Shown here piece by piece: positions 6,015-27,640 of a DNA stretch of 64,000 nucleotides. The translations under genes were made by a program, and so were the position numbers. Location: positions 34,847,213 through 34,911,212 of the forward strand of contig OX467084.1 in the NCBI GenBank assembly GCA_950106755.1. The letters are read 5' to 3'. The notes under the pieces are model-generated. The model was not told the DNA's origin. It saw only the letters and a program-made list of their open reading frames with translations, and did not search any database. Within the stretch, counting starts at the first letter, position 1. Every line of letters starts with the position of its first letter. This DNA is from Climacium dendroides. Its lineage: Eukaryota; Streptophyta; Bryopsida; Hypnales; Climaciaceae.

Positions 6015-9000
6015 GATGGCGGCAAATGTGAGGGAGGTGCTCAATGATGGATTGCTCAATGATGTCACGAGACTGACCGGTTACTGTTAATCAAAATCAA
6101 CCGTTTAGTATACAATACAGAAGTTTCTATTACAAGTCTGATTCGCTTCACCTTAAGTTCGAGGTGCTTTTGGTTGGTAGCCGTCAGAAAATCCTGTTTG
6201 AGTTATCTTTCAGTCCATAGACTTCTGTTGTTTCATGGAATGAGCGTTCCTCAGGCACCTTTTGTTGTTACCAAATACTCCCAAGTCTTTATTTTAATTT
6301 GGTCACAATGTTCCACCACATTAGTGCGTCCGTGTTGATAACCCACTCTTTCCAGGCACTGTCCTGCTATTGTTAGCTTGTAACAGTGTAATGTTTACAT
6401 GTTTATTTCTGTTCAGTACGCTTATGCTTGGATGTTTCAAATCTGGCGACGTTATTGACATGGGTCTTAGAGCACTGACCTTGTCATTGGTTATGAGTTT
6501 TATGTCTTTTAGTTCCTGGGTGCAAAGTATTATCTTAAATTTTTATAATCCCCACCTTGATAAGGCCTTGACTGAGTTTGATTAAGTGCGGTTCATAACA
6601 TCCTTGAAAGGAGCTACTTCAAAGGAACTTTCTCGGACATCTTCATTCTTGGCACAAATCCTCCCTCCTTTTCAGTAATGAAAGTGTTTGTATTGCTGAC
6701 CACCCTTCGCGATACCCAAGAGATTGTTGGTTACAATGCTTTAGAATGTTTTGTTAGAAGCTTACATTTGTCCTCTTCACAATTGTATGAATGTGGAATT
6801 CTGAACTTGTCAAACTTGACATGAAGTTGTTATTTTATTTTTAAGATTCCATTTTGTCAATGATTTTACTTTTCTAATTTGTCAACGTTTCTAATTTGTT
6901 CGGAAAATAGAACATGTGACTTGACCCCTAAAATATTGCAGTTTTTTTGAGGCTCACAATTGCTTCATAGCAAAGATAAATTTTTGTACATCTATATATT
7001 AAATTAGATTGGTTGTTTTATTTGTTAAGGTGAGATCTTTGGAACCCGGTGTCCCATTTTGTTTTGTGTTAGTTATGGATTTTTGAGGATCTTTTGGATC
7101 TTAAATTATCTTGAATTATGAATCAATTAGAGTGTGCATCACTCAATTGCATTCTTGGTATCCTTACAAAGTCTTGGTATCTTTAGAAAGTTTTCTATGA
7201 AAAGGGGTGCATGGATTTTGTTCCATGGCATCGAATAAAATGAAAATTGGGCCAAGGGCATAGGGCTACTCTAAAGTTGGTGAAGTTAGTTGTTTAACCC
7301 TTAAACATCAACAAGGACATTTAGTATCTAATGGATGACAAAGAATCTTTCTTATAGGACAAAAGAATAACTATTCATCCTCAAAATTTTGTTGTAAAAA
7401 GGGAAAGTCTTCTACAATAGTTTGACTTCTAGTGAGTGCTTTTGGAAGTCAAACTATTGTAAGTGAATGATTCACACGAAACCAAAGGGATGATTTCAAT
7501 GGTCACTAGTCCATCTTTCAAGGGTTAATAGTAGAAGGACAAAGCCCCATGACTAAGGTAGTTACTAAAAGATTCTAATTATTGGAGCAATGGATTCATT
7601 CTCAGCTTCTACAATTAATAATAAAGTCATCCATTGGACCTTTTAGCTTTGCACTTCCTTACAAGGTCAGCTTTGGAAGGACAATGGCCTATGATTAAGA
7701 TAGTCATTAAAAAGTTATTTGATTTTTGAACCAATAGGTGCATTCTTTATGTCTACAATGATCAAAAAAGTCATCTATTAACTACTTTTCAACTACATCA
7801 TCTTCATAAGGTTGTTATTTTAGGTGATTTATAATTAACTAAACAATTTGAAAATTAGAGAGTGATCATAATTGAAGGTTAGTACCTTCACCCAAACCAA
7901 CAATGTACCAAAAAGTAACACAATGCAGTGGCAATGTACATTTGATATATTTACATACAGGCCACTACTATAGAGTGTCATTTATCTTAGTGTATTGGTT
8001 TGGGTGTACTTACCTAAAACCCTTGAAAGGACTAGGGGGAGGATTGAATATATTTTTTGTCTTTTTGATTAGCTCTTGTAACAAGCATAATTTGTTATTT
8101 GTATAGAATAATTTAATGATTACCATTGTTGAAATGAAAGAAGACTTATATAGCTTTCCTATGAAAAAAAGATCACCTAAATCACACAATTTTTGAGAAC
8201 ATGCTACCATTGACAAGATTGATGAAAGATGTTTGATTAGGCAGTACTTTGTATGTATGCTGAAATCAAGATGTTCAAAAGTGCTCCAAAAACTTTAATT
8301 CTTTTCCCATAGGTATAAAAAAAAATTGATTTTTTTTTAGTTCATTTTGAGGTGTAGAAAATGATATGACAATCAAAAGTGGTGGCCTAGAGTACCTTTT
8401 CCATTCTCCAAAAATTCACCAAAAATTGCATAGTCAATCATTTTTTTATTAGATTACACTAATGGATTCAACAAAAGAAATTGTCTACGGATTCTTTGTT
8501 GTTTATGAACTGTTAATGAGGTTCACATTAAATTTTGAATTTTTTACAAATGTAGTTGTAGAAGCCATCTAGTAGCCTTGTGGTCCTTTAAGGGCTAATT
8601 GATTTTCAATTATGATTTTGAGATGGTTTCCTAACTTGTAAGAAATTTCATTTTTTTTATAATGACACCTAACACAAACATTCCAAGCTTTGATATATTT
8701 TAAACATGCAAGACTTGTAATTTCTTGCATTTTTGTACCCAATGGAAGATAACAAGATTTTGTAAGAGGTTGGTTGGGTTGATTTCAAAACAAAGTCTCT
8801 CAATTCCATCAATGAACCAAGCAATGAGATCACTTGACTTTTCTTGATGGCTTGAATGCTTGACTTTTTATCCTCAAACCCACGTTGTGTATTTTGATGG
8901 GATTATAATGATGGGCTAAATTCTTGGACTGTCTGAATGAAATCGTGAAACATTGTTCTTAATTGTCTAACACAAGATGATTCCTACATTTGAGCCTATA

Positions 9001-11728
9001 CTCTTTGAACCTTCAAAAGCTTTTGGGGAATACTACATGCTTTATTAACAATGTAATAAATTTTTATGTTGATATTATGTCAATAATATGTTAAAAAAAG
9101 TTATAAATTTATTAAAATAATAATAATAATGATAAAAAAAATTCATACTTACTTTGGGAAAAAATAATTAAGTGTATTTAACTAGGTACATATTAGAGTT
9201 ATCCTACATACATATTAGTAGCCATGAAATGTGGTCATCATTTAGCCCTTTTTCCAATTCCAATTCTACATTGCATTTGATTGCAATCGAATATTTCTTT
9301 TTTGGAATGATGACAAGACATGAATAAATGAATGATGACAAGTCACATTGAGTTGTCTCTTTTCTAAAGTGGTTCAATCCTTGTTAAATTTTTAGAAGAC
9401 AAAGAAATGTGAAAGTGTAACTTGCCACCTCATCACGAAAGAAGGATACAAAAAGATATGTCATCTCAAGCATATCTTCCATTGCACCCACCAAGCTATT
9501 TAATCTATAAAGGACCAAGTGCCCATTCAACATGCAAGAGATCTTAGATAGTTACACACAAAGTCAATTTTGGTCAAATGTTTGCAAAATTTTAATACAA
9601 GATATGAACATGTATCCTTTAGTTGGAGTAATTTTTTTCAATCAAGTGATCAAATTAAAGTTATGTTGCCCTAAACTTTTTTGTCAACCCAAGTAGCTTT
9701 GAGTAACATATGCAAAATTCCTCTAATTCTAAAATTTGGCATGTATGTAATTTACATGATATAAGATACAAATGTCAAAAAAATAACCATGTGTAATGTA
9801 AAGATCTTCTTCTAGGAGGAATAAAAGTTGTTGGCCTTGTTAGGCAAGGTTAGAATTTTTTTTACTTTAAACACTCTAATCTTTCAATCTTTGCAATCAA
9901 AGTTTCTGAAAAAAATTCCACGCATTCCCATAGTAGTATAGTACAAATTTTTTTGGTTAAATTTTGAAAAAAACTTTTTTTTCATTTTTTTCTCATTGCC
10001 CTAAGAAATGGCAATTTTTCACAATTTTTGACCAAAATGTGCTTTAATTTGGAAGGGAACAAACTTTAAAGTATGGAGAGTATTTTCTAAGTGAAATAGT
10101 GAAAGATTTCTAGTTTTTGGTGTACTGAAAATTAAAACTATTTTTTGAATCCCAACCATACAATAATGTAGTAGAATAATGGATCAATAAGTACCAAAAG
10201 AAATTCAAACTATTTGACATTGCGGATGGTAAGATTATAACTTTCAAAGTGGGTGAAAAAAGTATTAGTCAACTGTACCAAATAAGGACAATAGACTTAG
10301 ATTCTTTTTAAAGTGATATTTTTACTCTACTCTCAATTAAGCCTCTTTACCTTTGATTACTACAACTTGTTTGGTACCACTCATGAAAAATTTAGAAAAC
10401 AAATAAGAGGTCTACCTTATTCTAAATCACTTTACAATATAAAGAGGTCAAGTAATTTAGTAATACACTAGTATTTTTTATGGTTTCTTGTGCATTGGAG
10501 AATTTTTAAAAATACAAACAATAAAAATATAGTTTCAAACACTTCGAACCTATAAAAAAATTGAAAATCTTTCATGACATAGATTGCATTCAAAGTTAGA
10601 AGAAAATGTTCTTTTCAAAATTGTCTGATATAGCAAACTTATACTCCTCTTGGAGTGTGGTTTTAGAACTAAAATTAAATTTTTTGACAAACCTATGCCA
10701 TATCATCTAAGTTATATATACATGCCAAATTTCAAAAGTAGATGAAATGTTTATCAAAGGATGCCCATAAGATTTTGAAACTACCAAAAGTGACCAAATT
10801 ATTTTGGTTAGTATAACTTTCATTTTAAGAACCCGATCACTATTATTTTTTTATTATCACAAATGAGGTACTTGTCTACTCCTTATGTCAAACTTCAAAA
10901 CAATCCATTCAAAATAGATGCGTACAAATTTTCAAATGTATGTTCAACAAACATTTGTCCTTAAGTTTAAGGGTTAATATACTATGTAGATATCTTTCCT
11001 TAAACCATAACAAATCTACGTTGAATAAACCTTTGTTTGAAATGATTTTGTGTTAAATTAGCTTTGAAATTAAAATAGATTGTGCTAGAATCATCACAAA
11101 TTTAACCTCCAAAATCCCAAGGTCTTTTTTCCATCGAAATCACTCAAGACTACCATTTCTAATGCAAAAAAACAACAAACTTTAAAAATTGTTTTTCTTT
11201 GTCATGAGAGACGTGTGGACTTGGATTCCGCATTGAATGGCGTTTGCGGAGCTGTGGAGGTGTCAAAGGAGGTTTGGAGAACCCAAGACGCCAACGGGAT
11301 TCCGGCATCTCATTTGGGGACCTCAAAACCCTTGACCTCCATGTGGAGGTTTTGGAGACTCATCTTTCTCAAGTTGAGTCTCCCACATGATGGAGTGAGG
11401 TTTTGCCTCGTGGACTTCATTTACACATGCTATCATTCTTTAAGAATGGCATTGGCTCGACTTTGTAATTCTTTTGTGAGTTTTTTCCAGTTTCTTTAGA
11501 AGTTTTTCCTCATGCTTATTACTTGAGAAAGATCAAACTATGTTTATAGGTATATGCATAGTGAAAATTGACACCTAAAATAGTGGTAAACGGAGTTTTT
11601 GAGTGTTTTTGAGTGTTTTTTTGTGTGCTGGAATTGCAAGCAAAGTTGGAGCTTCGGCACCATAACCATGGGTTTGGGGGGGGGATAGCCTTGGAAATGG
11701 GTCCTAAATCCATATTTGGAAGTTATAT
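6015..11728. other. HY5 3' flank and long AT-rich intergenic DNA
   Basis: The first kilobase probably includes the HY5 3' UTR, though no polyadenylation site stands out. The rest is AT-rich without a recognisable gene. Around 7520-7790 two imperfect copies of a roughly 120-bp segment lie in tandem. 11,200-11,500 is somewhat richer in GC and may be retrotransposon or LTR debris next to the element that follows. Confidence 0.6.
7413..7461. repeat. Short perfect hairpin (17-bp arms)
   Basis: Arms 7413-7429 and 7445-7461 are perfect reverse complements around a 15-nt loop. It is probably a small foldback remnant. It is shorter than a typical plant miRNA precursor. Confidence 0.6.
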
Positions 11729-11828
11729 AACTTCAAAAAAAAGGGTGTCCACAATGACTGCAAAATGACTGCAAAATCACTATAGAAGTCATTTTGCAGT
11801 CATTGTGGACACCCATTTTTTTGTAGTG
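11729..11828. mobile_element. CACTA-type MITE with TAT target duplication
   Basis: A 100-bp element. Perfect 28-bp inverted arms lie at 11743-11770 and 11787-11814. The right terminus reads TTTTTTTGTAGTG, the complement of CACTACAAAAAAA, and the left terminus is a diverged version of it. It is flanked by TAT on both sides (11726-11728 and 11829-11831), matching the 3-bp target duplication of the CACTA superfamily. It has no coding capacity. Confidence 0.75.
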
Positions 11829-11863
11829 TATGTGCATTATTGGCTTTGCTTTGGAGATTAGGA

Positions 11864-11870
11864 TATAAAA
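11864..11870 (+). promoter_or_regulatory. TATA box, likely LTR promoter
   Basis: TATAAAA lies about 750 bp upstream of the gag ATG, followed by a CT-rich, less AT-rich leader (about 11,920-12,300). It fits a retrotransposon LTR promoter with R/U5 downstream. At 12608-12615 TGGTATCA matches the start of an initiator-Met-tRNA primer-binding site, but it sits only 2 nt before the gag ATG, so the LTR end is uncertain. Confidence 0.45.
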
Positions 11871-12617
11871 AGGTGGGTTAGGAAGAAGCCACTTAAGAGG
11901 GTCCCAAAACTTAAGGGGGAAAAGTGTTTCTCTCTCCTAAAATCTCTCTAAACTAGAGCTTGGAGTTGGAGGGCTTGCAAGAGTCTGTTTCCGTAGAGAA
12001 AAAGTTTCCGAGTGTGGTGGATAGTTTCCATGCTTTTCCATTGTTCCTTTAGCTTGGCCGGAGTGGGGTTTGTGAGTGGAGTGCTAGAGAGTTAGCAGTG
12101 CAAGTGATAGTACTTGCCTGCTTGCATTGACTTCGGGGAGGCTCCAACATGGGCAGTTGGAAGAACAACCGTCAAAGCTAAATATTGAGGAAGCCGCTGA
12201 AGGAGGTTCCTAGGAAGTGGGAGCTTGGAAACGGTACGGGGTCTAGAGAAGGTTGTCCTGGTGGTGTTCTTGGTGAAGGTTCAAATTCTCTAGTAACGGC
12301 AAGAGTTTGGGTAAATAGCGTGCCGGAAGTCCTCAGAGGTTGATTGGGGGGGGTAACTATATCAACCCATCTCATTTATTGAAGGATTGAGTTCTTAGGC
12401 TCAAGGCATTAGAAGTAGAGATAGGTGAATTTTTTTAAAAACTAGCAATATAATTGGTTAGTTCTACTTTTGGAGTGTAGTTGGTGATATGTACCAATTA
12501 CTAAACATTTCTTTTATTTCTGAGTGAGAGTTCATTTTCCTACACATAGCATGCCATTAGCATTCTGTGGTTTTTACCTTGGGTTTGCAATGGTGGGTTG
12601 GTCCATGTGGTATCATC

Positions 12618-14673
12618 ATGGACAAGGGTAAGGGTGTATCCAAGTCTTTTGGATTGATACCAATTAGAAAAACTGAAGAAGAAAGAGTTCAGATTGCCCT
12701 CGCTGAGGAAGAGCTCCAAGGTGTCTTCCAATCATTTCAAACTCTACATGTAGGGTCATCCAGTGAATCTTCTCTAAGACACCAACCTCAAGAAGCAACT
12801 CCGCCATTTGTGTTATCACCGTCGGCCAATGACTGACTTGAAGTTCAACCATTCAAACAACTAGGCACCAAGGCCATTAAGTTTTGGACTCAACAGTGAG
12901 GGGTGTGCATCATCCGGGATTTAAGAGCAAAATTGCCTATAATTGGAGCCCCGTTGAGTCGAGCAAGGGGGCGCTTGGAGGCAACTGATTTGGTTATACC
13001 ACGAATGGTGGTGGTGTTGAAGAACAAGGGTCAACGTTGAGAAGTGGTAAGACACATCTTTGAGGGGGCAATTCAATTGCCAACATTCTCATTGATCTTT
13101 ACGGAGTTGCAGGCCGGGGACTATTTGTTCCACACCACATGGCAGTGGAAACAAGATTGGTGGTTAGAGAGGGCATCCAACATTTGGGACTCTCTAACAC
13201 TTAGTTGCCTTGACATAGAGGTGTCACCAACTATTTATTGTGAGGCTGTAGAGGGGACGCATGAAGCTTGGCAGCTTTACATGTGAAATTTGATTTGCAT
13301 ATAAAAAATTGGATCTATTTGGAAGGCTGGGTTACACTAGGAGTGGGACACCATTTGTTAAAGACACCACTTTTGAGTCATCAGACACTAGCAGTGTTGT
13401 ACCAATACGTCCTCAAAGCCAAAAGCCCTTCTTGGGTAGGAGGATCCCAAATGATTTATTTTCAGATTCTGACAAAAAAGGAGCAGATTGGGTGGAAGAT
13501 AGTGAGCGTAACAAAGGAGAAAATTTATCTGTCATTGCAGTCGACCACGGGGTGAGACTTGCTTATAACGAATCAATATTCATATGGCTACACCATATGG
13601 AGGCGTTGATTGCAGAGTTCAGCGTTTTTTCGGTGCCAATGGCACCATGGAAGTGGACGACTTCTACAGGGAGTTCACCATGTGGTGTGAATTCCAAAGG
13701 TCATGAAACACCAACTTCAATCCATATATGGTGTGGAGGGCGCTATTCGGGTGTCTTGAAGGGGTACCATTGGCAAACTATGGGGATTGGGGAATTTGAG
13801 CTTGCTCATTCTACAAAGATCTTGGCCTAGCGGAATTACTACACCCCAAATTATGCTGATGTTTGGGGAGGAGGATCCACTGCCATAGTGACTATAAGCA
13901 GGGGAAAGAAGGAAGAAGGGGGTGTAAGCACGGAAGGCCAAGAGGCCACTGTGACCACGAGTCTGGTACCAACATTAGATCTACCTCCCTTCAATCCCAC
14001 GGCTCAATTCTTTTTGTAGCTACAGCGGGACTATTATGGGCAGAGGGCCGACAAAATGAAGTCACTTCATACGTTTGTATGTGGAAGTGATAAGTCGTTG
14101 CGAGAGGCGCATTCAAAACTGAGGTGGTTGATTTCCGCCATCCATGGAATAACTAAGCAACAAACTGTTCAACATTAGTATAATATCTTGAATAAAGAGT
14201 TAAAAACTCTTGTTTGAGGTGAAGCCTTGAGGTTGGGTGTTCCACCTACCTTAAGGTATGTTTTTGAGACTTCCGAGAGGATTGAGATTAATCTCTTGGA
14301 GGAAAAGGCAGCCATGGAGTTCTTGTGCAAGGAGGAGAAACTGCAAGAGAAGACCAAGATGGCAAGGGCGAGCATTCCAGATCATACTAGAGATGCCAAC
14401 ATCACGTGTTTCAATTGTGGAGGTGTTGGTCATAGGCGGCGAGATTGCAAGAAGACATCTCGCAAATATGCAGTCAAAACTAGTACGTTTTGCTTTGGTT
14501 GCAAGATCAAGGACCATGTGGAGGCCAATTGTTGGAAGGTTCATCCTGAAATCAAGCCCAAGAACACAAAGCAGGTGAAGAACAATGATTCCAAGGAGGC
14601 CAAGTCCACAGGAAAAGACAAGAAGTCATGGAAGTCGCGTTCAAAGAATTGGAGGCTAAAATGGCAGTCATAA
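12618..14673 (+). pseudogene. Retrotransposon gag with two CCHC zinc knuckles, broken
   Basis: The frame opens at ATG 12618 and is interrupted by TGA stops at about 12834, 12897, 13038 and 13284, all explicable as former CGA codons. It then shifts frame near 13.3 kb and is stopped again near 13,830. The C-terminal part (14227-14673) contains two zinc knuckles, CFNCGGVGHRRRDC and CFGCKIKDHVEANC, followed by a Lys-rich tail. This is typical of a Gag nucleocapsid that binds RNA during particle assembly. The upstream capsid part has the acidic and aromatic composition of plant Gag but no motif I can name. The next coding block follows closely in another frame. Confidence 0.8.
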
Positions 14674-14825
14674 GTGCCACTACCACTACGGGGGCGACTT
14701 CATTTTATGTAGAAGGGAGTTACCATATGTTGTGTAGCATGGCTGATGCTCAGACCACACCATTGGATGCTTATGCAGTGACTAGGAGCAAGACCGTGGT
14801 GTACGAGGTACCATGAGGTGCAAGT

Positions 14826-15700
14826 TTGGGGTTGGATCCACAAAGAGGTGAAGCCAACCGCCAAGCTAGGCTGCCAGAGTCATTCACACATTGCCCACCT
14901 CTTCCATGGTACCACCACATTACAATGCAAGCAGTCAATGGGTTGCTCGGTCTCTACATGGTAATGGACAAGGTAGAAGTTTCCTTTTTGATGCAGCAAC
15001 CGTTGTTTGTCAAGCTCCTTTGTTCATAGCATCCATAATTTCCCAAGCACAATTTAGTGCTGCTACAGTGTTTCAGTTGGCGGCTACTATGTGTGAGAAC
15101 GGCAGCTCGGCATCGGTGAGCTTTATGGAAGCTGTGCTTGAGCCACAAGTAGTGATTGGTAGTGAGTGGACTGAAGCAGAAGGGCTTTTATCAGCCGCTG
15201 CTTGGATCAAAACTATGCCGGCATGCTCGGTCATAAAGCGGTCCTCCATTACCTTAGGGGTAGTGGTATTGGACAACTCTCAAAGTATTTTCCAATTAGT
15301 TGGGCCCAAAAGGAGAGTATTTACGCCTCAACGGGTACTATTGGATTCCGATGCACAACCCTTGCTATTGGGAGCGTCAACAATTGAAGGCTTGGGTTTG
15401 ACCGAGGATGTGTTGGAAACATATCTGTGGATGATTAGTACTTCAATGGGAGGGAGAGAGCAAGCGAAGGGCATCACGAGGGGTGAGTTGGTATTGTAGT
15501 TGCGCCAAGATGATGTCGAGGACACTAGCTTCATGAAGGTGAAAGCCATAGTCACATAGGCTAAATCATATGATGTTTTGGTAGGGGCTATGATATTGTA
15601 TCCTATGGTATTTACCTTGGACTTTTAGGAAGAGACAGCATACTATAGACCGGGATGGCAAATGAGAGATGGGTGCAAAGTTCAATTGTCAGCTTGATTT
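14826..15700 (+). pseudogene. Retropepsin-type aspartic protease region, inactivated
   Basis: Between the zinc knuckles and the methyltransferase, the frame encodes a retropepsin-like core. RVLLDSDAQP (active-site DSD at 15344-15352) stands where gypsy proteases have D-S/T-G-A, followed by ILG-like GASTIEGLGL and, after stops, a segment around YDVLVGAMILYP typical of the second half of the fold. The catalytic Gly is replaced by Asp (GGT/GGC to GAT) and stops lie at about 15497, 15557, 15626 and 15696. The enzyme would normally cut the Gag-Pol polyprotein. Placement and motif make the assignment likely, not certain. Confidence 0.65.
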
Positions 15701-15811
15701 ATACAAGTTTTTACCGGTAATTTAGTTGATATCTATTATTTTGCTAGACTTATAAGCGAGGGTCAACTATGGTTCAAGGAGGATCTCGGAGATCCTCCTA
15801 TTGTCGCTTCG

Positions 15812-17005
15812 TTGAATGTCATTGAGCACCATAATCATCATGATGGTGAGGACACTGGAGGCGACATGTTGTACCAACCCGATGTGGAAGCGATATGGGA
15901 TAGTACCGCGAGACTACAAAAGGCAGCCAACAAAGTTACCCAGGAGGTGTGGCAACAATCATTGTTACCACAAGAGAATGAAGTGGTTGAAGGTGAAGAC
16001 AACGACGGTCCTCGCTTGGACACTTCAACAATCCGGTGGAAACCACCAAAAGAAGGTATAATTCTTTTGGAGTTGTTTGGTAGCATTGGCACAGGGTTGG
16101 CGGTTGTATTGCAGGCGGGTATGAAAGTGAAGCGTTATATTTATGTTGATAACGATGATATGGCACGGTAGGTGGCCAAGCGCCATGCTCGACGTTTATG
16201 TCGAACATTTCCAAACTCATTACACACCTATGTTATCACAACCGCATTTTCTGCATTGCCAAACGATATATCACTCATCTCACTCCAAGACATTGTTCAG
16301 TTGAGGGCGGTAGACTTGATTATCGTGGGATGGCTATGCCAAGGTATGTCTATGGCTGGCAAACAAAACGGATTGAAGGACAAACGTTCTTCAAAATTCC
16401 ATAACATGGTGAAAATACTTCGGTATATTCAGACTTCTCAACGGCAACCTCCAAAGTACATCATTGAGAATGTACCAATGGTTGGTACATCACGAACCTG
16501 CACGCTTAACAATCTTCATCATGTACACAAAGTTCTTGGTATTCCAGTATTATTGGATGCCGTGGCAATGGGTTCTAGAGCTCATAGGCCACGATTTTGG
16601 TGGACTAATTTAGCTCCACCGAAATTCTTGCATGCAACAATACGACGCATTCATTAGCTTGACATATATGTGAAGGACATCTTAGACCTTCATCAATCAC
16701 CACGACGGGTTTACCACGATGATCAAGCACCACTTGCAGTAGTGAACCGCAAGGGTGAGCCCTGGAGAGCTTTATCAATATTGGTGAGTTTTTCTAAGTC
16801 CTATGCATTCAACTACAATGGTCTTGGGTTGGTGTGGGATGCCCGTACCGAGGAGATGGTTGAGTCCAACGTTGATGAGTAGGAACGGGCCATGGGGTTT
16901 CAAACGGGAATCACCCAAGCACCTGGCATTACTGAGTTTCAAAGGCGATATCTCATTGGCCAAGCCATGGATTTAATTTTCTTTCATGGATTGTGTCACT
17001 TGTAA
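15812..17005 (+). pseudogene. Cytosine-5 DNA methyltransferase domain (DNMT3/DRM-like) inside the retrotransposon polyprotein
   Basis: One continuous frame, broken only by TAG codons at 16169, 16655 and 16880, carries the ordered C5-methyltransferase motifs. Motif I (AdoMet binding): LLELFGSIGTG at 16064-16096, then an acidic YVDNDD. Motif IV: GWLCQGMSMAG at 16328-16360 with the catalytic Cys at 16337 (the usual Pro before it is Leu, CCA to CTA). Motif VI: ENV at 16466. Motif VIII: RAHRPRFWWTNLAPP from 16577, close to the DNMT3 form. Motif IX/X: ERAMGF...RRYLIGQAMDL at 16883-16970. The unpermuted I-to-X order resembles DNMT3 more than plant DRM, in which the motifs are rearranged. It lies between protease and reverse transcriptase in the strand and direction of the element, so it is element-borne and not a host exon. 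In a live element it would methylate cytosine in DNA; this copy cannot be translated through. Confidence 0.88.
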
Positions 17006-17505
17006 CGGCCGAATAGAAGCATTTAGCTTCAACAATAGATGGCCACTTGGGGTTCTATGAACTGCAAGCAGCTATGAAAGCATCAAGTTCTGGGACATCA
17101 CACTTGATGGTTGGGGGCAAAGACGCCTTTACAACTCATCCATGGGACATGTGGAAGAATAATGCATTTTTCACAACTCCAAAGACAAGCTTAACTACTT
17201 GGGATCAATTGACCAAGCCGAAGATGGAGTTGGAGGAAGATGTGGACAAGTTGTTTACTGAGGAGTATATATCGGATCAAACAGAAGAACTATGGTGCTT
17301 GAGCCAAGTTGAAAAATGATATGGTATGGCAGGTGTAGAACAAGATGAAGCTGCTCCAACTGGTGTGCAATAACAACCAAAAGTGGAGAAATTTGTTTCA
17401 AAGGAAGAATGGAAGGAAACGGTGACCAAGGAAACTTAAAAACCGTTAGTAGACATGGAAGATGAAACATAGGAGAAACAGGAATAAGAGTTCCTTAAGA
17501 GTCAC
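17006..17505 (+). pseudogene. Linker between methyltransferase and reverse transcriptase, decayed
   Basis: The frame moves to that of the RT. The encoded stretch is rich in Glu, Lys, Thr and Gln, with no domain I recognise. It has several stops between 17.31 and 17.49 kb (TGA, TAA, TAA, TAG, TAA), most readable as former CGA, CAA or CAG codons. It may be the N-terminal extension of the RT. Confidence 0.55.
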
Positions 17506-18673
17506 GTGGATTACTTTGTTTTTAGTTTGAAAGATTTGGGAATTTTTAAGGGACAAGAAGTATATATTAACTTGACGGATGACACACCGATTTACCGCAA
17601 GCTGTACAAGTATAGTGAAGTAGAATGCAAAATGATTCAAGACCGAACGAAAGAGTTGTTGGAGGCCGGATTGGTGGAATTAGCACCTTCAGATTGTGAG
17701 TATGCATCAGCGACAGTGAAGCCATCTAAGAAGGATATTTTTGATAATTGGACCGAAAAGAGGATGTGTGGGGATTATCGGAGAATTAATAAATTCACAA
17801 AGTCCGACCGTTATGCAATGTCGACACCGGAGGAGAACTTTGACGCCATTGGTCATGCTAAAGTATTTAGTACTTTGGATCTCCAGTCGGGTTATCACCA
17901 ACTTGGTATTCGAGAAGATGATAAGGGAAAGATGGTGTTCTGGAGAATCAATGAGGATGAGAAGGACCGACTTTATCAATGGAGGTTTTTACCTTTTGGC
18001 TTGAAAAATGCCCTTGCTGAATTTTAAAGGATTATAGATTGTATATTTTCGGGCTTGGGTTTTGTGAAATGCTACATTGATGACATTATTGTCTATAGCA
18101 CAAATCAAAATCAACATAGAGCTCACTTGAAGGAGGTTTTTGCTAGACTGAGACTTCATGGCTTGAAACTGCATCAAAACAAATGCAAGTTTTATTATGA
18201 CCGTGTGGAGTACTTGGGCCACATGATATACCCAAGTGAATTGGATGTGGTAGCTAGTAAAGTGGAAGTGATGATTTCTATATGAAGACCGAAGGATGTG
18301 AGTAGATTGCGGGCATTTTTGGGATTGTGCAATTACTATTGGAAGTTTGTGAAGACGTTTAGTGCCATTGCAAAGCTATTGACTATACTAACAAGGAATG
18401 ATCAACCTTGGATGTGGGGAGATGAGCAAGAGGCTACCTTTACACAATTGAAGGAACGTTTATCATCGGCACACATTTTGAGGAGGCTAATTTTTAGTAG
18501 AACATATCAATTGCACACGGATTGGAGCTCACTGGAGATTAGTGCGGTGTTGATTCAAATGGACGACAATGGCAAGGAGTTTGTGGTAGCTTATGCTAGT
18601 TGCTCCAACAACAATGCGGAGGCATAGTACAGCTCATATGAGGGAGAATGTTTGGCAACAATTTGGGCCATTG
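17506..18673 (+). pseudogene. Ty3/gypsy reverse transcriptase and 5' half of RNase H
   Basis: The frame contains the RT fingers and palm: YRKLYKYSEVE, CGDYRRINKFT, STLDLQSGYHQLGI, FLPFGLKNA, then the catalytic YIDD box at 18073-18084 and the thumb segment RLRAFLGLCNYYWKFVK. RNase H begins at TDWSSLEISAVLIQ and runs into EGECLATIWAI, where it is cut by the CACTA insertion. Stops at 18026 (TAA, where FQR is expected), 18283 (TGA) and 18625 (TAG, where EAQYSS is expected) again fit Gln/Arg codons changed by C to T. The catalytic YIDD is intact. The enzyme copies the element's RNA into DNA; this copy cannot make it. Confidence 0.93.
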
Positions 18674-19831
18674 CCACTATAAGAAAACTGTGTCTACTTG
18701 GACATTCAGCCAAAAACGACGTATGTCCGCGACAACACGATACGTCGCAGAAGACATTGGGGTGTCAGGCGGAAAAAGTGAAGATTTTGCTTTAATGTCT
18801 TCGACAGCATTGTTAGATTTTAGTCACAGCATACTGATGCTACGAAAAACACTAATGCAATGTAAGACATCCAGATGGACACCAAATGTTTACAAGGATG
18901 TCCACAATAACATGTTCAGCCACGTCACCATCTTTGGTCAAACTTAGCTCAGAAGTTGATTTAGAATTTTGGTGCGGTCAGAGGTAAAGTGACTGCCCAA
19001 GGTTAAAAAGAGGACAACGGGCAGGTGGTGACTCCTAAAAGCTTATGTGGCATCTGACGTGACGTGATGAGGTGGAAATTGGGTGATGTGGACATGGGTG
19101 ATGACGTGGCATGCCACGTCAGCATACTTGGCCTATCCATGTTCCGATCTTGGATGTCTCCGTGGACGTCACAAGTGACGTACTGACGTCCACATTGACG
19201 TCACTTCTGGCGTCAACATTTTGTACTTACTGCGAATGTAACTTCAAACCACATGCTATCCACTATGCGTTTCATTACGTCTGACTGGACGTGTGGATGT
19301 TGTGAAAGCAATTGTAGGCGTCTTCTTTGATGTCAAAATGACTATAGATGCATGACATGACTTTATGTCCAAGGTTGAATTTGCACATGATGCACGTCCT
19401 TCCTATGTAGTACAAAATGACTTATGTGTTTACTTGGTTAAGGTTCATTTTTAGGCTATTGAAGTCTTACGTTTTGCGCACGTTCAACAAACTTCATTAG
19501 GATAAAATTCCACCCTATTCATATGATGTCACTTGCAGCATCAAGCAAGACAGACTCTGCCACAAAATGTACATTCAAGATGCAATGGGTCTACTTGGAA
19601 AACATGAATATGCTGATGGCTTTGTATTTCTCAGACGTCTTACGTGACGTCAAAATGTTGGCACAGCAAACACATGTCAGTGATGTGAACATCCTATGTT
19701 TCCTCCTCAGATGCAATGTCATTGCTAACTACGGCAACATACTTTCCACCATTGTCTACTGGTTGGCGCATCAGGTGCACGACTTGTTGTAGTGGTTGTA
19801 GGCCATTGAAGTCCCTATCATTCACCAACTG

Positions 19832-20085
19832 CACCATATAAAAAAACTGTGTTTTTTTCTGATGTCAGGCCAAAAACGTTGTACGGCCAGGATAACATCA
19901 TACGTCTAAGAAAACATTGGATGTCACGTCGACGGACGCTGGAAAAGCAAAGATTTTGGTTTGATGTTGTAGAAAGCATTGCTAAATTTCAGTCACAGCA
20001 TACTAGTGCTATGAAAAACAATGATGCAATCTAAGACATTGTTGTGGACATCAGATGTTTTCAAAAATGTCCAGAAAATTTTTCA
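19832..20085. repeat. Second copy of the CACTA left-end block
   Basis: The 250 bp from 19832 follow, with substitutions, the first 245 bp of the element (18675-18921): the same CACYATA..AAAACTGTG start, GGCCAAAAACG, AAACATTGG, CAGTCACAGCATACT and so on. The transposon thus carries its left terminus twice, 1157 bp apart, from an internal duplication or one related element inserted in another. Confidence 0.75.
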
Positions 20086-20321
20086 AAATGTTATAAGCTA
20101 TATAGATTTAATTTATATAACAAATTTATATAAATTAGATGAATGGATTTGTTATGAAAAAAGGTTTACAAAATCATATCAATATTATATTATATAAAAA
20201 TATTTATTTTTAACTTAAGATTTAAATTCTAAATTTTATTAGTTTAAAATCATAAATTTTGCATCAATATCTAATGTGGGGTGATTTTCTAGTGTTCTTG
20301 GACTTTGAGATATTTGACATC

Positions 20322-21000
20322 TTAACCTTTAAAGGACCAAGGCCTTTTTTTTGCCAGAAAACATTGAAAATTGCCATTTCTATAGCAAAGAGTAAAAGAA
20401 ATTTTAATTTTTTTCCACATCTAACTATAGGATCTTACACCTAACAAGTAGAAAAAATTGTAGAAAAAATTTCAGAATTTTTGACCGCATTGATTTAAAG
20501 TGGAAAAAACAAGTTTTTTAGCGCATTGAAGGACTAGATTTTTTGACTTTGTAAAATTTTTGCACTACAGAGTTTTGAGATTTAAATATTTATAGTAGAG
20601 AATTGAGTTGAGAGTTCAGGCAAATAAATAAAAAATAAAAAAACTTAAATTTCATTCTTAAAAAAATTGTTAAGTAGAAGTAGGTATGAGATAGAAGGAA
20701 AATCTAAATTATTAATAAATTTTAGATGGAATTAAAATGCACTAATCCCAATGGTGAGATTGTTCTAGCAAGTAAACTAAACCACGTGAAATTTTTATTT
20801 TGAAAAAATTATAAAAATTGCATTCAGAAATGCATCCAACAAGTTATTTTTTTCAAGAAGATGCTCTAATTGCCTAAAAAACAAAAATGTCCATAACTTT
20901 CTCATAACAAATCCAAATGAAATGAATTAGAGCTTTCTAGATAGACAAAAATATAATCTACAATTGGAATTCCATGTTGGATGTATTGTTGTGTCATACT
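20322..21000. repeat. Diverged copy of the dispersed CCCCTAAAGG element
   Basis: It starts with TTAACCTTTAAAGG and shares a chain of words with the copies at 24.7, 30.1, 33.3, 41.5, 43.6 and 62 kb: ATTGCCATTTCTATAGCAAAG, then ACATCTAACTATAGGATCTT, and CATAACTTTC near the far end. It lies inside the CACTA element. The far boundary is uncertain. Confidence 0.5.
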
Positions 21001-21572
21001 ATATTGAAGTTGATGTTGCAAACAACCTAGATTTAATAAATATGACTTTATCAATTAAATGTTCAAGGAGACATCCCCATATATGTTGAAAATGACATGC
21101 AAATGTTCATCATAGCATCATAAACAACAAAGAAGATTTGTAGAAAATTTAGAAATTGTTGAAGCAAATGTTTAAAACAACATTGATGTGAATGTCTAAT
21201 TTCATACTATAGATGTTCTTTTGAATGTTTACAATGATGTCGAAAAAAACATAACTAAGACATGTAAATGTTTTTTAAGACATTATTTCAGACATCATTT
21301 CTGACATCATTGTATTTATGTTGCTACTCATATTTTAGATTTGTATATCCCATATTGTTTGTCATGCCTCCTACACCCCACTAGTATAAAAGGCTTGTCT
21401 TTTCATCAATTAATAAGTAGATTTTTGAGCCATTCAATATACTTGATAAATATAGTGTATGGTGTATTTTGTATGGCATATTTTATATGTTGTATTGCAT
21501 ATGATATACCATATATTGCATATTTTATATTGTGTACAACATATTATTACATTGACAACATTAGAACGTCCA

Positions 21573-21792
21573 ATACAATGCATACATGCGTTTTAGGAGA
21601 TGTCCCAAAAAATAAGTGGACGTTGTCGCTGACATCCTACAATGCAAGAAGCCATCTGCTATCCCAGCATGTACTTGTGCTGATACAATGCATACATACG
21701 TTCTAGGAGATGTCCCAAAAAATAAGTGGACGTCGCCGTTGACATCCTACAATACAAGAAGCCATCTGCTACCCCAGCATGTACTTGTGCTG
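21573..21792. repeat. Tandem duplication, 2 x 110 bp
   Basis: Units 21573-21682 and 21683-21792 differ at only a few positions. They lie in the right part of the CACTA element and include the ATGTCC and GACATCC words typical of its subterminal region. Confidence 0.9.
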
Positions 21793-22388
21793 GCTTATGC
21801 AAACAAACATCTCCTATAACATGGTATGCTTTGAGAAGCATGCATGTGCAAATTCCACACGCTCAGATGGACATTTCAATCAGCATACAACTGTTTCACC
21901 TGACGTCATTTAAGACACCTGGATGTCCACAGCAATGTCTTAGAAGACATCCTAAAATGCTAGGCAGACCAAGCAAGTGGCCCCAAAAAACGCCATGTCA
22001 GCATCTGTGGATGCCACGTCAACCAATCCCGTCAGCACCGACGTGGCATGCCACGTCAGCCAATTCCATGAGCACCGATGTAGCATGCCACGTCAATTAC
22101 ATGTCAGATGCCACATCATAGATGGGCAATGGATGAAAAAAATGACACTCTGGCTTTCCCGCGCCTAGGTGGCAGCCACATGTCAACTCTTGAAGTTACC
22201 CGTTGACCGATGTCTTTTTGGACATTACGATGCTGGGCTTGCAAATCTTATGCAACGTACCATGTTTTTGGCATGTCCATGGCAGCACGAAGTGATTGGA
22301 CATCAGTGCAGACATGAAACGCGTCACGCGCGATGTCCGAGTGTCCAAATTGCGATGTCGCGGCAGACACAATTTTCTTATAGTGTTG

Positions 22389-24237
22389 TCTACTTTCGTT
22401 GTTATTTATATGGCAACGAATTTCTATTGGTTACAGACCACCAACTGTTGAAGTGGCTCATGGAGTCCAATAAGCTCACTGGCAAGCTTGCACGATGGGC
22501 CTTGATGCTAATGGAGTATGATTTTAAAGTTGTACACCGTGCCGATTTGGTAAACATGGATGTTGACGGCTTGAGCCGCAATCCAAGTCTTAGCCAAGTG
22601 GACTCTACGGGGACTCGTTGGCACGTGGAGGAGGGAGAAGATTCGTTAACAGGTTGGTATGCTGTCGCCTATTTGAGTTTATTGGCGATGACTGGAGACG
22701 TTACCGAGGAAGCCATCGTAGCTACGATGGATGCAGATGGTGGTGAAGAATCTAGGGGTGCCAAAGACATTTTTGAGGATGGAGAGGTGATGAAGAATTT
22801 GAAGCATGGCGAATTGGCAACCACATTGTCAATCAAAGAGAAGGATTGGAACCTTCAACAAGCAAAAAGGTTTAGGTGGGAGGGGGATCATTTACTTTGA
22901 GTTTGGCCAGACAACAACAGAAAGGTGGTATCGGCGCCTCTTGAGAGAGTGAAGTTGATCATGCATGCACATGAGGACTTGGAACACTTTGGAGTGCGAC
23001 AAACTCACAGCTTGTTGCAAATTCACTATTGGTGGCAAGGCATGCAAACGCAAGTCCAACAGTTAGTAGCTAAATGCACAATTTGTGATAGAGTGCGGGC
23101 ATCATTCAATGCCCCAATGCCTCAATTACAACTGTTGCCAATCATGGGATTGGGTTATAGGTGGAGTTTGGATTTTGCAGGACCATTGCCGGTAACATCA
23201 CGACACAACAAATATGTGTTGGTGATGATTGAACATTTTTCCAAATGGATCGAGTTGGTGGCATTATCTAACAAGTTCAGTGAAGGGGCAACTTATTCAT
23301 TCTTGGATTGGGTGCTAAGTTGTTTTGGAGTTCCAGCTAAGGATTTGACTAACTAAGGGTATGAGTTCCTTGGAAAATTTCAAGCCTTGTGTGAATAAGC
23401 CATGATTGATCATTACACTACTTCACGAGATCATCCTGAAGCAAATGAATTGGCGGAGTGCATGGTGCAAACCGTCAAGAGGGGACTTCGGAAATATAGC
23501 TTGAAGAAGGGTCATCATGGAGATTGGGACTTACAACTACTGTGGATAGCAATGGGCTATCGGTTTAGTAAGCAAGCATCTCTAGCTTCTTTTTCACCCT
23601 ATTATTTGTTGTTTGAGTGCCATCTATTTTTACCCATGGCTATCAAACAAGATGCAAACAAGATATTGGATCGCTTGGATGATTTAGACACGTGGGCACG
23701 CGTTTGCAAGCAACGGGCAGATCTGTATAAGAAGGTGATGCCCATGGCTTTGGAAAACCTTTCAATTGCGTAGCATAGAGACACCTTGCGTTATGCCACG
23801 ATACAAGGAGGTGGTTATCGACCTTAGGTTCGACATTTCTTATCAGGTGACTACATTTATTTACAGCATACGGCGCCAACCACCCTCAACGTGACTGCGG
23901 GACGTATTATTGTACGGGTGCGTAAAGTACTCAAGTCTAGCATGTTACTCTTAGAGGACCGTGATGGCAAAGTCTGGAAAGATCACATGTACGATTGTGC
24001 ACCGTATCATTTGCCACACATAGATGGACAGATTGATTTGAGTAGTTCACAGATATTAGCTGGGCTAAAATGTGTATTGTGTGGCAACATCAAGTGTGCT
24101 GCTACCATGGTTTTATATGATGTTTGTTCCACAGGGTGGCACACGGATTGTTTGAATCCATCTTTGGAAGAAATCCCAGCAGGTTGTTGGATTTGTCCCA
24201 AGTGTATATCGGGGCGTGGACAAGCATCGACATCTTA
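22389..24237 (+). pseudogene. RNase H 3' half, integrase and C-terminal PHD finger of the retrotransposon
   Basis: The frame resumes with VTDHQLLKWLMES...VVHRADLVNMD (end of RNase H). The integrase has an HHCC zinc-binding region (H-x4-H at MHAHEDLEHFG, CTICD), then the catalytic core with Asp in WSLDFAGPLPV (23171). The second catalytic Asp is changed to Asn (AAC at 23351) and followed by a stop. The Glu survives in ANELAE (23456). The GPY/F-like module (GDYIYLQ...GRIIVRVRKVLKS) ends in APYHLP, followed by a PHD finger to the natural-looking stop at 24235-24237. Other stops lie near 22898, 23396, 23771 and 23825. Integrase inserts the cDNA in the host chromosome; the D-to-N change and stops make this copy inactive. 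Confidence 0.92.
24071..24205 (+). other. PHD zinc finger at the integrase C-terminus
   Basis: Ligand order is CVLC ... C ... GWHTDC ... WICPKC, with the usual Trp two residues before the last Cys pair: the C4-H-C3 layout of PHD fingers. One ligand is lost: the third position is Tyr (TAT at 24116, from TGT by G to A). PHD fingers read histone H3 tails, so the domain could steer integration, a role chromodomains play in many plant gypsy elements. That role is inference. Confidence 0.82.
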
Positions 24238-24340
24238 GTATGGGTTTTCTACTGGATTCTTGTTAGTGCTTTGGAGAAGCCTACTGAATTCACTAGTGTG
24301 AAAGGGGCTTCAACCTAGCGAAGGGGGCGAGTAAAGAAGT

Positions 24341-25750
24341 GGTTGTGAAACCACTTGCTACACCTGGTGTACTGAGTACTATGAGTTTTTTTATTTCTTT
24401 ACTATGCTATGAATGTTTTCAGTGTTAGTGCTGATAGTGATAGGATGTTTTTAACATTGCTATCATTATTTACAAGCTTTTATCGTGATTGTGACTCACA
24501 TCACAAGTCACGATGTGTTTTTCCTATAACCACGGTGTCCACTGTTGGTCAAGAGCTATTGGATCTTGGTGTGGTTAGGTTACTAACCAATTACAAGGTT
24601 TATTGTTTACTTATTGCACGCTTTCTCTCATGTTGGCTTGATATGATCTTGGCACGATGTATTTGTGCACGACATCTTGCATATCTAACCAAAGGATCTT
24701 GCACTAGACTAATGTAAATATGTATTGAAGAAATTTCAAAACTCTAAGTGTGTAGATTGCAAGATATTTGCATTTAAAGTGAAGAAAACAAGTTTTGTGC
24801 ACCTTATGCAATTAGATTCTTTGACTTGAATCTTTATAGCTTAAAATTTTTGTACTACTTATTTTGACTTTCTATTTTTTATGTTGAGTAATTGAGTTGG
24901 AAATAATGGAATTATTTTTAAAAAGTACACACTCAAGTTTTATTCATTAAAAAATTGTTAAGTAGAAATTGGTTCAATATTGAAGGAAAAACTAAACCAT
25001 TAATAGATCTAAGATGGTATTGAAATACACCAATCTCAACAATGAGATTGTTACGTTTTAGCAATAGATCTTAACCTTGTGTAACTATTTCTTTTTAAAT
25101 TGTGAAAATTGAATTCAGAAATGAAGTCAATAAGTTATCTTGTCTAAAAGATGCTTTGATTGCTTGAAAGACAAGAGTGTCCATAACTTTCACATTACTA
25201 ATCCAAATGTAATGGATCAAAGCCTCAGGTATAGATAAAATACAATATATGAAAAATACATTTAAATTTTTTTAAGCTAATGAAGTTTTTATTTCCCCAA
25301 ACTAAATTTTGGGCTTATTGTGTCATAATTTTTGCTTCCAAGCACCAATTATACAACATTTATCCAGTTGTTGACTTTTAAAAGCCTAGAATTAATAATG
25401 GTCATTAGAAGAGAAAAAAAATGGTCATTAGGAGATAATGCAAAACAATAAAAGATTTATACAAAACATTGGGAGATAACTACAAAACATCCAAAGATCT
25501 ATATAAACATCCACAGATTTCTCAATAATCATGGCCAAGCGAGTGATTGATCCCATGTATTCACTTGCACCCACTACATTGTTGAACATGCTTTGGAGGT
25601 TGATGGCACGCCCAGGCAGAGCTACTACTGAATATGGTGCCCGAATTTTGAATTCCCTTGTCATTTGTAGAGGCAACATGTACGTCTTGTTTTGATGTGG
25701 TTCCTAAATGCACTTATAGCCTCCAATTTGAGATGACCCATCCCGCCTTG
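24341..25750. repeat. Retrotransposon 3' flank and a dispersed repeat copy
   Basis: 24,340-24,680 may be the start of a 3' LTR but matches nothing at the 5' side. From about 24,680 to 25,270 the sequence follows the dispersed element seen at 20.3, 30.1 and 62 kb (GGATCTTGCACTAGACTA, AGATTGCAAGATATTTGCATTT, CATAACTTTCACATTA). 25,270-25,750 is AT-rich with no gene. Confidence 0.5.
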
Positions 25751-25962
25751 CACAGGGAGCTCATATGAGTCTTCCGTGATGATTCTTCTGTGAGTGCCAT
25801 TTTCCCCGTATGTGTTCGTTGCGACATGTGTCCCAAATTCCTGTAAATAGTAAAAACTTTACTATTTACAGGAATTTGGGACACATGTCGCAACGAACAC
25901 ACACGGGGGAAAATGGCACTCACAGAAGAATCATCACGGAAGACTCATATGAGCCCCCTGTG
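25751..25962. repeat. Long near-perfect foldback (arms ~105 bp, 3-nt loop)
   Basis: The left arm 25751-25854 and right arm 25858-25962 are reverse complements with only a few mismatches and one 1-bp gap, around the loop AAC. An RNA copy of either strand would form a ~100-bp hairpin. There are no MITE-like termini and no target duplication that I can see. It could be a fresh inverted duplication, a small-RNA precursor or an assembly artefact. Confidence 0.88.
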
Positions 25963-26289
25963 TTGCACGTTACCACCGGTGACTACATCCTCCACCTAGT
26001 GATTGTAAAGATGAGAGCGAGTAATACTTCTCCCAAAGGATACATGCGTTGTCCTTGTCGGATGCATTGTGAATCAAACCACAGGCAAGGCAATTGCATG
26101 GTGACAAACACTCCACCACTAACGATCTCAAGATTGTAGGTGATCCAAGGACAAGTACTATTTCAGGTGGTACCTACCCTCTTGGCTTGCGTCAAGGATT
26201 CGAATTATCCTACCTTGGGCGGCCTCACCCCCTTACCGACATGTTGCCTTCTCCTATTTTGATAGCCGACAACCCCAAATCCAAATTCT

Positions 26290-26411
26290 CACTACAAGAA
26301 AACAATGTCCAAATTGACATGTCCGAATTGACAGAATTTTGTCAAAAAAATGTCCAAATTGACAAAAAATTGACAAAAAAATGTCCAAATTGACACTGCT
26401 CCCTTGTAGTG
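26290..26411. mobile_element. CACTA-type MITE with TCT target duplication
   Basis: A 122-bp element starting CACTACAAGAAAACAATGTCC and ending TTGTAGTG. TCT flanks both ends (26287-26289 and 26412-26414). The interior is several direct copies of TGTCCAAATTGACA, giving a high density of transposase-binding-like repeats. Confidence 0.85.
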
Positions 26412-26414
26412 TCT

Positions 26415-27640
26415 CCAAATTCAAATCTCCACAATCAAAGACCAATCCCCCAAATTGAACAAATCCAATTCAGTCCTCCCTTGCAAGTTCCCAATATTGC
26501 AATCCCTAATGCCAAGCACCAAATTTTGTATACCTTGATTTATTCCAATGAGATTCCCCTCACCTCCCCTACAATTCCCACTCAACCTCCCATATCCAAC
26601 ACAAGTATTGCCAGTTGACTACAACCTTCGCCCTTATTTGCCTCTTCACAATCTTCCAAATCTTGGCCATTGTTTAGTGCATAGAAATATATTCAAGAAC
26701 ACAAAAATTCCCTACTCATCTCCTTCAACGTATTGCTTAGTCTACTCGAACAACCTTCCAATGTAGCGACAACACAAGTATCGCCAGTTGTATATCCTAG
26801 GCTTGCTACCCCAGTGATGCTTATATGTTGGTTGCGGCAACATCTAGAGAAAATCCTCCTATAAGCAATTCACAACTTTTTGAGCAATATCCTTGCTTGC
26901 ATCCCTCTCAATCAACTAGTTCCACAATTTATCTTGCACCTACCAAACCTCTTCCTTTGTAGCCCGACCAACCTACAAGGCAATCATCATTTTCTAGAAG
27001 CAAATGGAGCACAAAAGAAATCTTTTGGTTATTTGGCATTGTGAGTGAAAGTAGTGCATTGTTGTGTCCTCCACTCGCAAGTCCTCATAGGTTGCCTTTT
27101 CCTTAACGCAACTCCACAAATGATGAACTTCATTCCACTTACCACTCTTCTTCTTCATATTGCTTCCTCATTGCACAAAAACTATCTTCAAACCCTATCC
27201 AAATGTCATATACAAAAAGGGACAATCTTCACATTTCATATCATTATTGGCACAATAATACTAAATTGGCATCTTCTACTCTGATGCTACCACAAGTGAT
27301 TTCTACGGAACTCTAAATGCTTTCTACCCATTTTGTCTCCACCTTCAGAAGTAGATCCGAGACCAATGGTCTCCTACTAACAAGTCCCGATCACATTTGG
27401 GACATCCCAAGCAAACTGCCATGTCCCATGTTTCATTTGTAATCAATCTGCCAACTACCAATCACGTTGCAACACCATGATGATCCAAGCAACGTCATCA
27501 TCACCCTTTCAATTCTGCCTTCGTCCAAATTCACATCTGCCCCAATCGATTCTGATTCACCTTCGTTATGTGTGGGCCTTTTTTCAATCTTGAATGGCCA
27601 GAATCTATCCCCTTGGGTGGTTTAGGCCTTTAGGGTTAAC
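26415..27640. other. C-rich segment, possible decayed coding DNA
   Basis: Richer in C (CCAA, CTCC, TCCC words) than its surroundings. Short open frames on the + strand at 26.4-26.8 and 27.05-27.28 kb use Pro, Asn and Leu but show no motif I know. It may be remains of a gene or transposon. No function can be supported. Confidence 0.4.

Follow-up and report, generated by a model that had tools for sequence, protein, structure and literature searches.

A DNMT3-type cytosine methyltransferase in a Gypsy-type retrotransposon family of the moss Climacium dendroides

Cytosine methylation is the classic means by which hosts silence retrotransposons. A retrotransposon that keeps a de novo type cytosine methyltransferase (MTase) of its own is therefore a paradox. 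One such case is raised by a 64,000-nucleotide stretch of the Climacium dendroides genome (the window), in which a first-pass annotation placed a C5 MTase domain inside a Ty3/gypsy element. The question is whether this domain is a regular part of the element or a stray gene fragment, and what the element might do with it. The precedent named in that annotation is real, since retrotransposon capture of cytosine MTases is described for dinoflagellates and for Klebsormidium nitens in the main text of PMC5890265.

The window copy and its copies in the host genome

The features of the window copy are listed in Table 1. All Pfam domains around the MTase (zinc knuckle, RVT_1, RNase H, H2C2 and rve) lie on the + strand, and the order protease (PR)-RT-RNase H-integrase (INT), with an rve integrase and an H2C2 domain, is that of Ty3/Gypsy elements. 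The MTase frame (15812-17005, + strand) contains internal TAGs at 16169, 16655 and 16880 and ends with a TAA at 17003; the model PF00145 matches its unbroken piece 16172-16654 (E=8.8e-12). Frame reading and this match confirmed the claim that C5 MTase motifs follow one another in normal order in a single frame with three TAGs. The Pfam neighbours likewise agreed with a position between PR and RT on the same strand, PR being recognized via relatives. The frame itself is present as annotated, but its TAA is local, because the linker behind the MTase continues in frame 1, which indicates a frameshift near 16985. The PR frame carries three TAGs and one TGA, and its unbroken piece 14870-15496 gave no Pfam match, so the window protease was identified through related copies: the same region of the sister copy L023 has weak aspartyl-protease model matches (0.0077 and 0.011), and the protease of environmental relatives lies above the Pfam cut-off (1.3e-5). 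No Pfam match at 0.01 was obtained for four further ORFs, of which one lies at 13294-13827 and three in other parts of the window. With its TAGs, the frameshift, LCQ in place of PCQ and the nested CACTA insert, the window copy is dead. The insertion site of the CACTA transposon is uninterrupted in L021, L023, L025 and L026. Sequence related to the insert also occurs in the stretch L022.

Table 1. Features of the window copy (positions in the window)
Feature	Position	Strand	Basis or remark
Candidate target-site duplication TCTT, left	11196..11199	.	
Whole element copy, TGTC...GACA ends	11200..24674	+	about 9.8 kb without the nested insert
Terminal segment A (A1)	11199..11521	+	78.7% over 328 columns to L026 7020-7344
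gag zinc knuckle	14401..14454	+	PF00098, 3.6e-7
Protease region of ORF1	14870..15694	+	3 TAGs inside; tblastn with L023 piece, 78%
DNMT3-type C5 methyltransferase domain, decayed	16058..16972	+	PF00145; profile of relatives best matches DNMT3A
Catalytic motif, WLCQ in this copy	16331..16342	+	frame reading
Linker after MTase, frame 1	17017..17319	+	side-by-side reading; also in environmental protein P0011
ORF1/ORF2 boundary stop and CARYYA, TAA CAA CCA here	17371..17379	+	
Reverse transcriptase and first part of RNase H	17488..18624	+	RVT_1 3.4e-8; RT_RNaseH_2 1.1e-15
Nested CACTA-type DNA transposon, 3.7 kb, splitting RNase H	18675..22385	.	inverted ends CACTATAAGAAAA[C/T]TGTGTCT
Rest of RNase H	22386..22520	+	PF17917 1.3e-11, profile 60-105
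Integrase H2C2 and start of rve core	22901..23353	+	PF17921 1.5e-14; rve 1.2e-4, below cut-off
PHD finger, after integrase	24071..24205	+	PF00628 3.0e-6; 4.2e-12 in L031
Terminal segment B	24330..24674	+	24463-24674 twice in L026; S1 homology ends here
Candidate target-site duplication TCTT, right	24675..24678	.	

A 161-residue piece of the MTase was searched against the window's own assembly (412,615,100 bp in 123 contigs). The search gave 92 matches (E<=1e-3) among 101 scored candidates, some of them pieces of one copy; merging neighbouring matches by eye leaves at least roughly 70 places. Two subfamilies were distinguished: S1 (L002-L020, 58-78% protein identity), and S2, which belongs with others to a more distant set at about 34-44%. 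Among the 20 best loci (L001-L020, L001 being the window copy), 19 have PR upstream of the MTase, 15 have RT downstream and 14 have both, in same-strand orientation; the annotation had proposed looking for copies with this order, and they are common. It had also proposed looking for an intact PCQ, which was found as WPCQG in nine of these 20 loci, whereas three have WLCQG, one has WSCQG and seven are unreadable at this place. Most copies are broken, because the MTase is stop-free in just 4 of the 30 places that cover at least 150 of the 161 residues, one of the four being the window piece, which had been picked as stop-free.

Fourteen stretches of the assembly were fetched: six of S1 (L021-L026), seven of S2 (L027-L032 and L034) and a filler without MTase (L033). 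Pfam results on pieces of L021, L023, L027, L028, L029, L031 and L034 fit the order gag-PR-MTase-RT-RNase H-INT-PHD. PR and MTase share one unbroken frame in L031 and L034 (Pfam), and a single unbroken frame of L028 holds PR by Pfam and MTase by reading. The PHD finger lies downstream of the integrase in L021, L028 and L031 and is weakly matched in L029. In chromoviruses a chromodomain occupies this place, C-terminal to the Gypsy integrase. An arrangement shared by so many copies argues against a stray gene fragment and for an MTase that belonged regularly to the element, and comparison of the copies supports an unpermuted DNMT3-type MTase as a fixed component of this Gypsy-type element.

Type, relatives and constraint of the methyltransferase

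A profile built from nine element MTases scored best against DNMT3A (6.8e-16, motifs I to VIII), followed by DRM (2.2e-8, motifs I-IV only), HhaI (3.9e-6) and DNMT2 (0.0085); DNMT1 and CMT were absent from the matches at E<=1. The alignment to DNMT3A extends to a C-terminal stretch, which is not significant by itself. A DRM-type or bacterial identity was ruled out by this ranking. In the fold search, every one of the 50 matches shown was DNMT3A, 3B or 3C; the query was a low-confidence model (pLDDT 49.5) and serves as support only. By profile and fold matches together, the element MTase is nearer to DNMT3 than to DRM, DNMT1/CMT, DNMT2 or bacterial enzymes. Its C5 MTase motifs are in unpermuted order in the window frame, the alignment and the profile. 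WPCQ is invariant in an alignment of 14 proteins, and the NV of ENV and WTN are kept in at least 90% of them.

In a tree of 21 rows, with DRM as the sole outgroup and with long-branch warnings, 15 element MTases form one clade (100/99) separate from host DNMT3, host DRM and human DNMT3A. Such a tree had been named in the annotation as a way of recognizing a host gene fragment, and it gave no sign of one. Within the clade, S1 and S2 are each well supported. A Marchantia protein (P0032) joins S2 in one tree (97/97) and S1 in another (83/91), and the grouping of S1 with S2 to the exclusion of Marchantia had an AU p of 0.119. The host has three DNMT3-type loci (L053, L062 and L063), intron-split by reading, and one exon of L062 matched DNMT3 entries only when searched. 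The element MTases have unbroken frames and no introns. Host DRM loci show the rearranged order (L035, checked; L054, by reading), and the annotated difference between a DNMT3-like order and that of DRM was borne out by these loci and the profile. The host DNMT3-type loci carry PCQ, not PCN, at the catalytic motif.

Relatives have also been found outside the host genome. An S1 piece retrieved 12 environmental proteins that are 53-63% identical, and an unbroken S2 ORF had 29 matches among the 7,994 best word-sharing candidates scored. P0032, the Marchantia polymorpha protein MARPO_0008s0049, is 39% identical over 82% of the S2 query and forms a gag-PR-MTase chain, with MTase assigned by Pfam and gag and PR by reading and alignment. 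PR and MTase share one unbroken frame in P0022, P0023 and P0025 (Pfam); two 715-aa proteins among the S2-query matches hold both in a single chain. P0018, likewise retrieved with the S2 ORF, is named a DNA cytosine methyltransferase and filed under a Candidatus Obscuribacterales MAG; because it falls among S2-type retrotransposon proteins, it is probably a contaminant. The environmental protein P0041 has a different order, the MTase being followed by integrase H2C2 and rve without RT between them, and a very long branch. One scan of viral contigs found no relatives, and another gave six distant matches (L065-L070; 32-58% over short stretches). One of these, L066, has the length and range of the Streptomyces contig L072. 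One scan of bacterial genomes was likewise without relatives; another, which covered bacteria and archaea, retrieved L071 as well as four distant matches in Streptomyces.

L071 (CADCWO010000201.1) is a contig of 9,285 bp from a MAG assigned to an uncultured cyanobacterium. Its MTase is 73-74% identical to that of S2, and its RT and integrase are 90-91% identical in protein. ORF1 is a 1162-aa frame, open at the contig start, with PR-MTase by Pfam; downstream of a single TAG lies an in-frame 1047-aa ORF (RT-RNase H-INT-PHD). L071 is interpreted as a eukaryotic element that was misbinned. The first and last 127 bases of the contig are identical, and terminal segments B and A are joined in it as GACA-GC-TGTC, which would point to a circular DNA form or to collapsed repeats.

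Constraint was assessed between L071 and S2 and among host copies. Between L071 and the S2 MTase, amino acid identity is 74%, pN is 0.165 and pS is 0.81, with synonymous sites saturated. The corresponding pS/pN values are 0.70/0.145 for PR, 0.71/0.063 for RT and 0.75/0.046 for INT, so that the MTase changes faster than RT and INT. Judged from these substitutions, the MTase is under purifying constraint between genomes. Among close copies, dN/dS mostly reflects decay. The window copy compared with L026 (S1) gave 0.23 for the MTase and 0.15 for RT; with L025, 0.50 and 0.33; and with L021, L023 and L024, 0.61, 0.60 and 0.86 for the MTase against 0.20, 0.24 and 0.24 for RT. By the contrast with the last three copies, the MTase was less constrained than RT in the younger history of S1. 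S2 pairs ranged from 0.88 to 2.1 for the MTase, from 0.66 to 3.8 for RT and from 0.43 to 0.87 for INT. Between copies, whose pairs are not independent, transitions outnumber transversions in both S2 (4143 vs 454) and S1 (3504 vs 591). CG and CHG account for 20% and 27% of the S2 transitions (C/G positions of L028, 12% and 11%) and for 20% and 15% of those in S1. Such a spectrum is what methylation-driven decay would give.

The ORF1/ORF2 boundary and the element ends

Several properties of the family go beyond the first-pass annotation, namely an ORF1 MTase ahead of a readthrough-type stop, the PHD finger, split terminal repeats and the relatives in other organisms. The MTase belongs to ORF1 (gag-PR-MTase), and ORF2 encodes RT-RNase H-integrase-PHD. 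The ORF1 stop of S2 lies at one shared place, with ORF2 directly after it in the same frame in L027, L028, L030, L031 and L032, that is, in five of the seven stretches (L029 changes frame, and the L034 boundary was not displayed). The stop and next codons read TAG CAA TCA in six of the seven S2 stretches and in L071, TAG CAA TTA in L029, and TAG CAA CCA in most S1 copies; the window copy has TAA CAA CCA. With each genomic copy counted once, duplicate loci removed by hand and loci without a readable alignment omitted there (e.g., L003, L004, L014, L016, L018 and L047), the complete TAG-CARYYA is present in 12 of 15 S1 copies (exceptions L001, the window copy with its TAA, L012 and L019) and in 11 of 13 S2 copies (exceptions L036 and L061). 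The boundary stop is TAG in 26 of the 27 copies read besides the window. CARYYA follows only 9 of the window's 7855 stops, counted over all six frames, and 29 of 12,568 stops in L021-L032 with the conserved sites included. The boundary stop alone precedes CARYYA among the 13 in-frame stops at 14870-18030 of the window, where linker and RT share one frame with more stops in between; in the S1 copy L023 the RT piece is in a different frame.

The retroelement SIRE1 has a stop of the UAG-CARYYA type, and its readthrough gives an envelope-like protein. In L071 and the five S2 stretches, UAG is followed by CARYYA and by the next ORF in frame, which is the sequence pattern of type I readthrough. This motif is known from tobamoviruses, benyviruses and pomoviruses according to the available text of PMC5382211. 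In tobamovirus type I cassettes the same UAG-CARYYA between in-frame ORFs yields the replicase (PMC5382211), whereas in the Climacium element it separates MTase from RT. From the stop context, the MTase is predicted to be produced with Gag, in excess over RT and integrase.

The left end of the window copy (11200) was placed by two features of L026, its B-A junction and its similarity to window 11199-11521, and the right end (24674) is where homology stops in five of the six S1 stretches (L021 and L023-L026). TGTC and GACA at these ends are flanked on both sides by TCTT, a repeat seen in one copy only and expected by chance in about 1 in 256 cases. No LTR pair was found within 9000-27500 of the window, where three other repeat families occur; in place of two full direct LTRs, the window copy has segment A at the left and segment B at the right. 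In L026, segment A sits between two B pieces. The 3' ends of L026, L028, L030, L031 and L032 are of this B-A-B type; among the S2 copies, L028, L030 and L032 end B-A-B and L031 ends B-A-(inverted B)-B, while L027 finishes after a single B. The junction of B with A is GACA-NN-TGTC or a one-base variant. In S2, B measures 107-108 bp, and A is 343 bp in L028. A1 was seen in the window copy only, and A2-B2 in other copies only. The two B segments within a copy are 96-98% identical in S2 and 86% in L026, and S2 therefore looks like a younger wave. The element is not of DIRS type, as it has an rve integrase and, in one copy, the TCTT repeat. L029 has an inverted B at the left and an inverted A at the right. 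The palindrome at the end of L031 is 97% over 214 bp.

Published elements and a proposed role

The closest published element is KnitGypsy-Dnmt3 of Klebsormidium, compared here by its published description and not by sequence. As given in the main text of PMC5890265, it has Gypsy domains, an intronless unpermuted Dnmt3-type MTase in the polyprotein, repeats arranged as in DIRS elements and copies under purifying selection in K. nitens. The Climacium element shares the domains, the MTase type and purifying constraint, and probably the arrangement of repeats, the parts of which were seen in different copies. It differs in its host and in the place of the MTase, which is described as part of the Pol ORF in KnitGypsy-Dnmt3 but is upstream of the UAG-CARYYA stop in Climacium; the main text of PMC5890265 contains neither the word PHD nor the word protease. 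The likeness in split repeats suggests common descent. The dinoflagellate elements SymbioDIRS-Dnmt3 and SymbioLINE-Dnmt are likewise retrotransposons with cytosine MTases, but the former is a DIRS element with a tyrosine recombinase and the latter a LINE (PMC5890265), whereas the Climacium element has a DDE-type integrase with H2C2. The SymbioDIRS enzymes methylate CG in yeast (PMC5890265). Marchantia MARPO_0008s0049 has the same chain as the Climacium ORF1, but is annotated just as a hypothetical protein and is known from its gag-PR-MTase part. Plant DNMT3 genes show the same normal motif order, but are host genes in the available text of PMC6453930, which reports no DNMT3 in angiosperms; the Climacium loci of this type are not members of the element clade. 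DNMT3-type genes beside rearranged DRM mark the host as a streptophyte and, given the report on angiosperms, as a non-flowering one; its genome size suggests a bryophyte.

The accessible part of PMC12344493, citing PMC5890265, mentions that DNMT3 occurs in "LTR Copia and DIRS" elements, both in streptophytes and in dinoflagellates. The available parts of PMC6338049, PMC9516144 and PMC10952607 contain nothing on a Gypsy-MTase family. In the literature outside subscription papers and most preprints, no land-plant report of an MTase-bearing Gypsy family and no report of a PHD finger on a Gypsy integrase were found; searches on split repeats of Gypsy elements and on CARYYA readthrough in retrotransposons also gave no land-plant report of such a family. 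To the captures described from dinoflagellates and charophytes (PMC5890265, main text), the Climacium family adds land plants, including the model Marchantia.

The reading preferred here, with a probability of roughly 0.6, is that an old Gypsy-type family took up a DNMT3-type MTase and kept it as an enzyme that is made at Gag dose and methylates the element's own cDNA. ORF1 would be translated as Gag-protease-MTase, and at the leaky UAG-CARYYA stop a minority of ribosomes would continue into ORF2 (RT-RNase H-integrase-PHD finger). The leaky stop would leave the MTase in Gag-like excess; the enzyme could then be packaged into the particle and methylate the cDNA ahead of integration. A methylated new copy might resemble host DNA, and the PHD finger may help to steer integration toward a chromatin state. 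This mechanism is specific and checkable, in that a readthrough-type stop would fix how much enzyme is made, tying it to Gag and not to RT and integrase. Domain order, copy number, DNMT3 type, between-genome constraint, stop context and, for some copies, the ends are observations, whereas readthrough, packaging, cDNA methylation and targeting are predicted. CG methylation in yeast by some retrotransposon DNMTs (PMC5890265) speaks for the reading. The lack of activity of the KnitGypsy MTase in yeast, the breakage of most copies, the weaker constraint on the MTase than on RT among close S1 copies, the high MTase ratios of close S2 pairs, the faster change of the MTase than of RT and INT between L071 and S2, and the poor structure model speak against it. 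A wider version joins Gag-level MTase, PHD-guided integration and pre-methylated cDNA to a single ancient DNMT3 capture by a split-repeat Gypsy element, whose lineage would span Klebsormidium, liverworts and the host; it is put forward tentatively and is itself rather doubtful.

The annotation's own suggestion, that the element copied or steered host methylation so as to hide itself or mark its sites, is a conjecture. The MTase might act on host chromatin or other DNA in place of the element's cDNA, countering silencing or marking target sites. Retention of the domain in relatives, the possible entry of an ORF1 MTase into the nucleus with Gag, and a PHD finger that ties the element to chromatin would all suit such a target, but the spectrum of decay is that expected if silent copies undergo ordinary CG/CHG methylation by the host, and this alternative is considered unlikely. 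A non-catalytic MTase that binds RNA or DNA in the particle, or one that methylates RNA, is judged improbable as well. Its place in a Gag-like ORF and a constraint weaker than that of RT are consistent with such a role, yet the invariant WPCQ and the well-kept ENV and WTN residues argue for catalysis. Also in keeping with a non-catalytic role, the relative from Klebsormidium showed no activity in yeast, a result judged inconclusive in the main text of PMC5890265; human DNMT3B failed there too. Under the preferred reading of a Gag-dose enzyme acting on its own cDNA, the MTase is an old part of the element; a chance match, or a host DNMT3 fragment that fell into one copy, was rejected as extremely improbable, because in spite of the three intron-bearing host loci that could have supplied a fragment, there are 92 genome matches and a PR-MTase-RT order shared by 14 of the 20 best loci, the position of the MTase is common to many copies and extends to other organisms, its frames are unbroken and intronless, and the tree sets it apart from the host genes.
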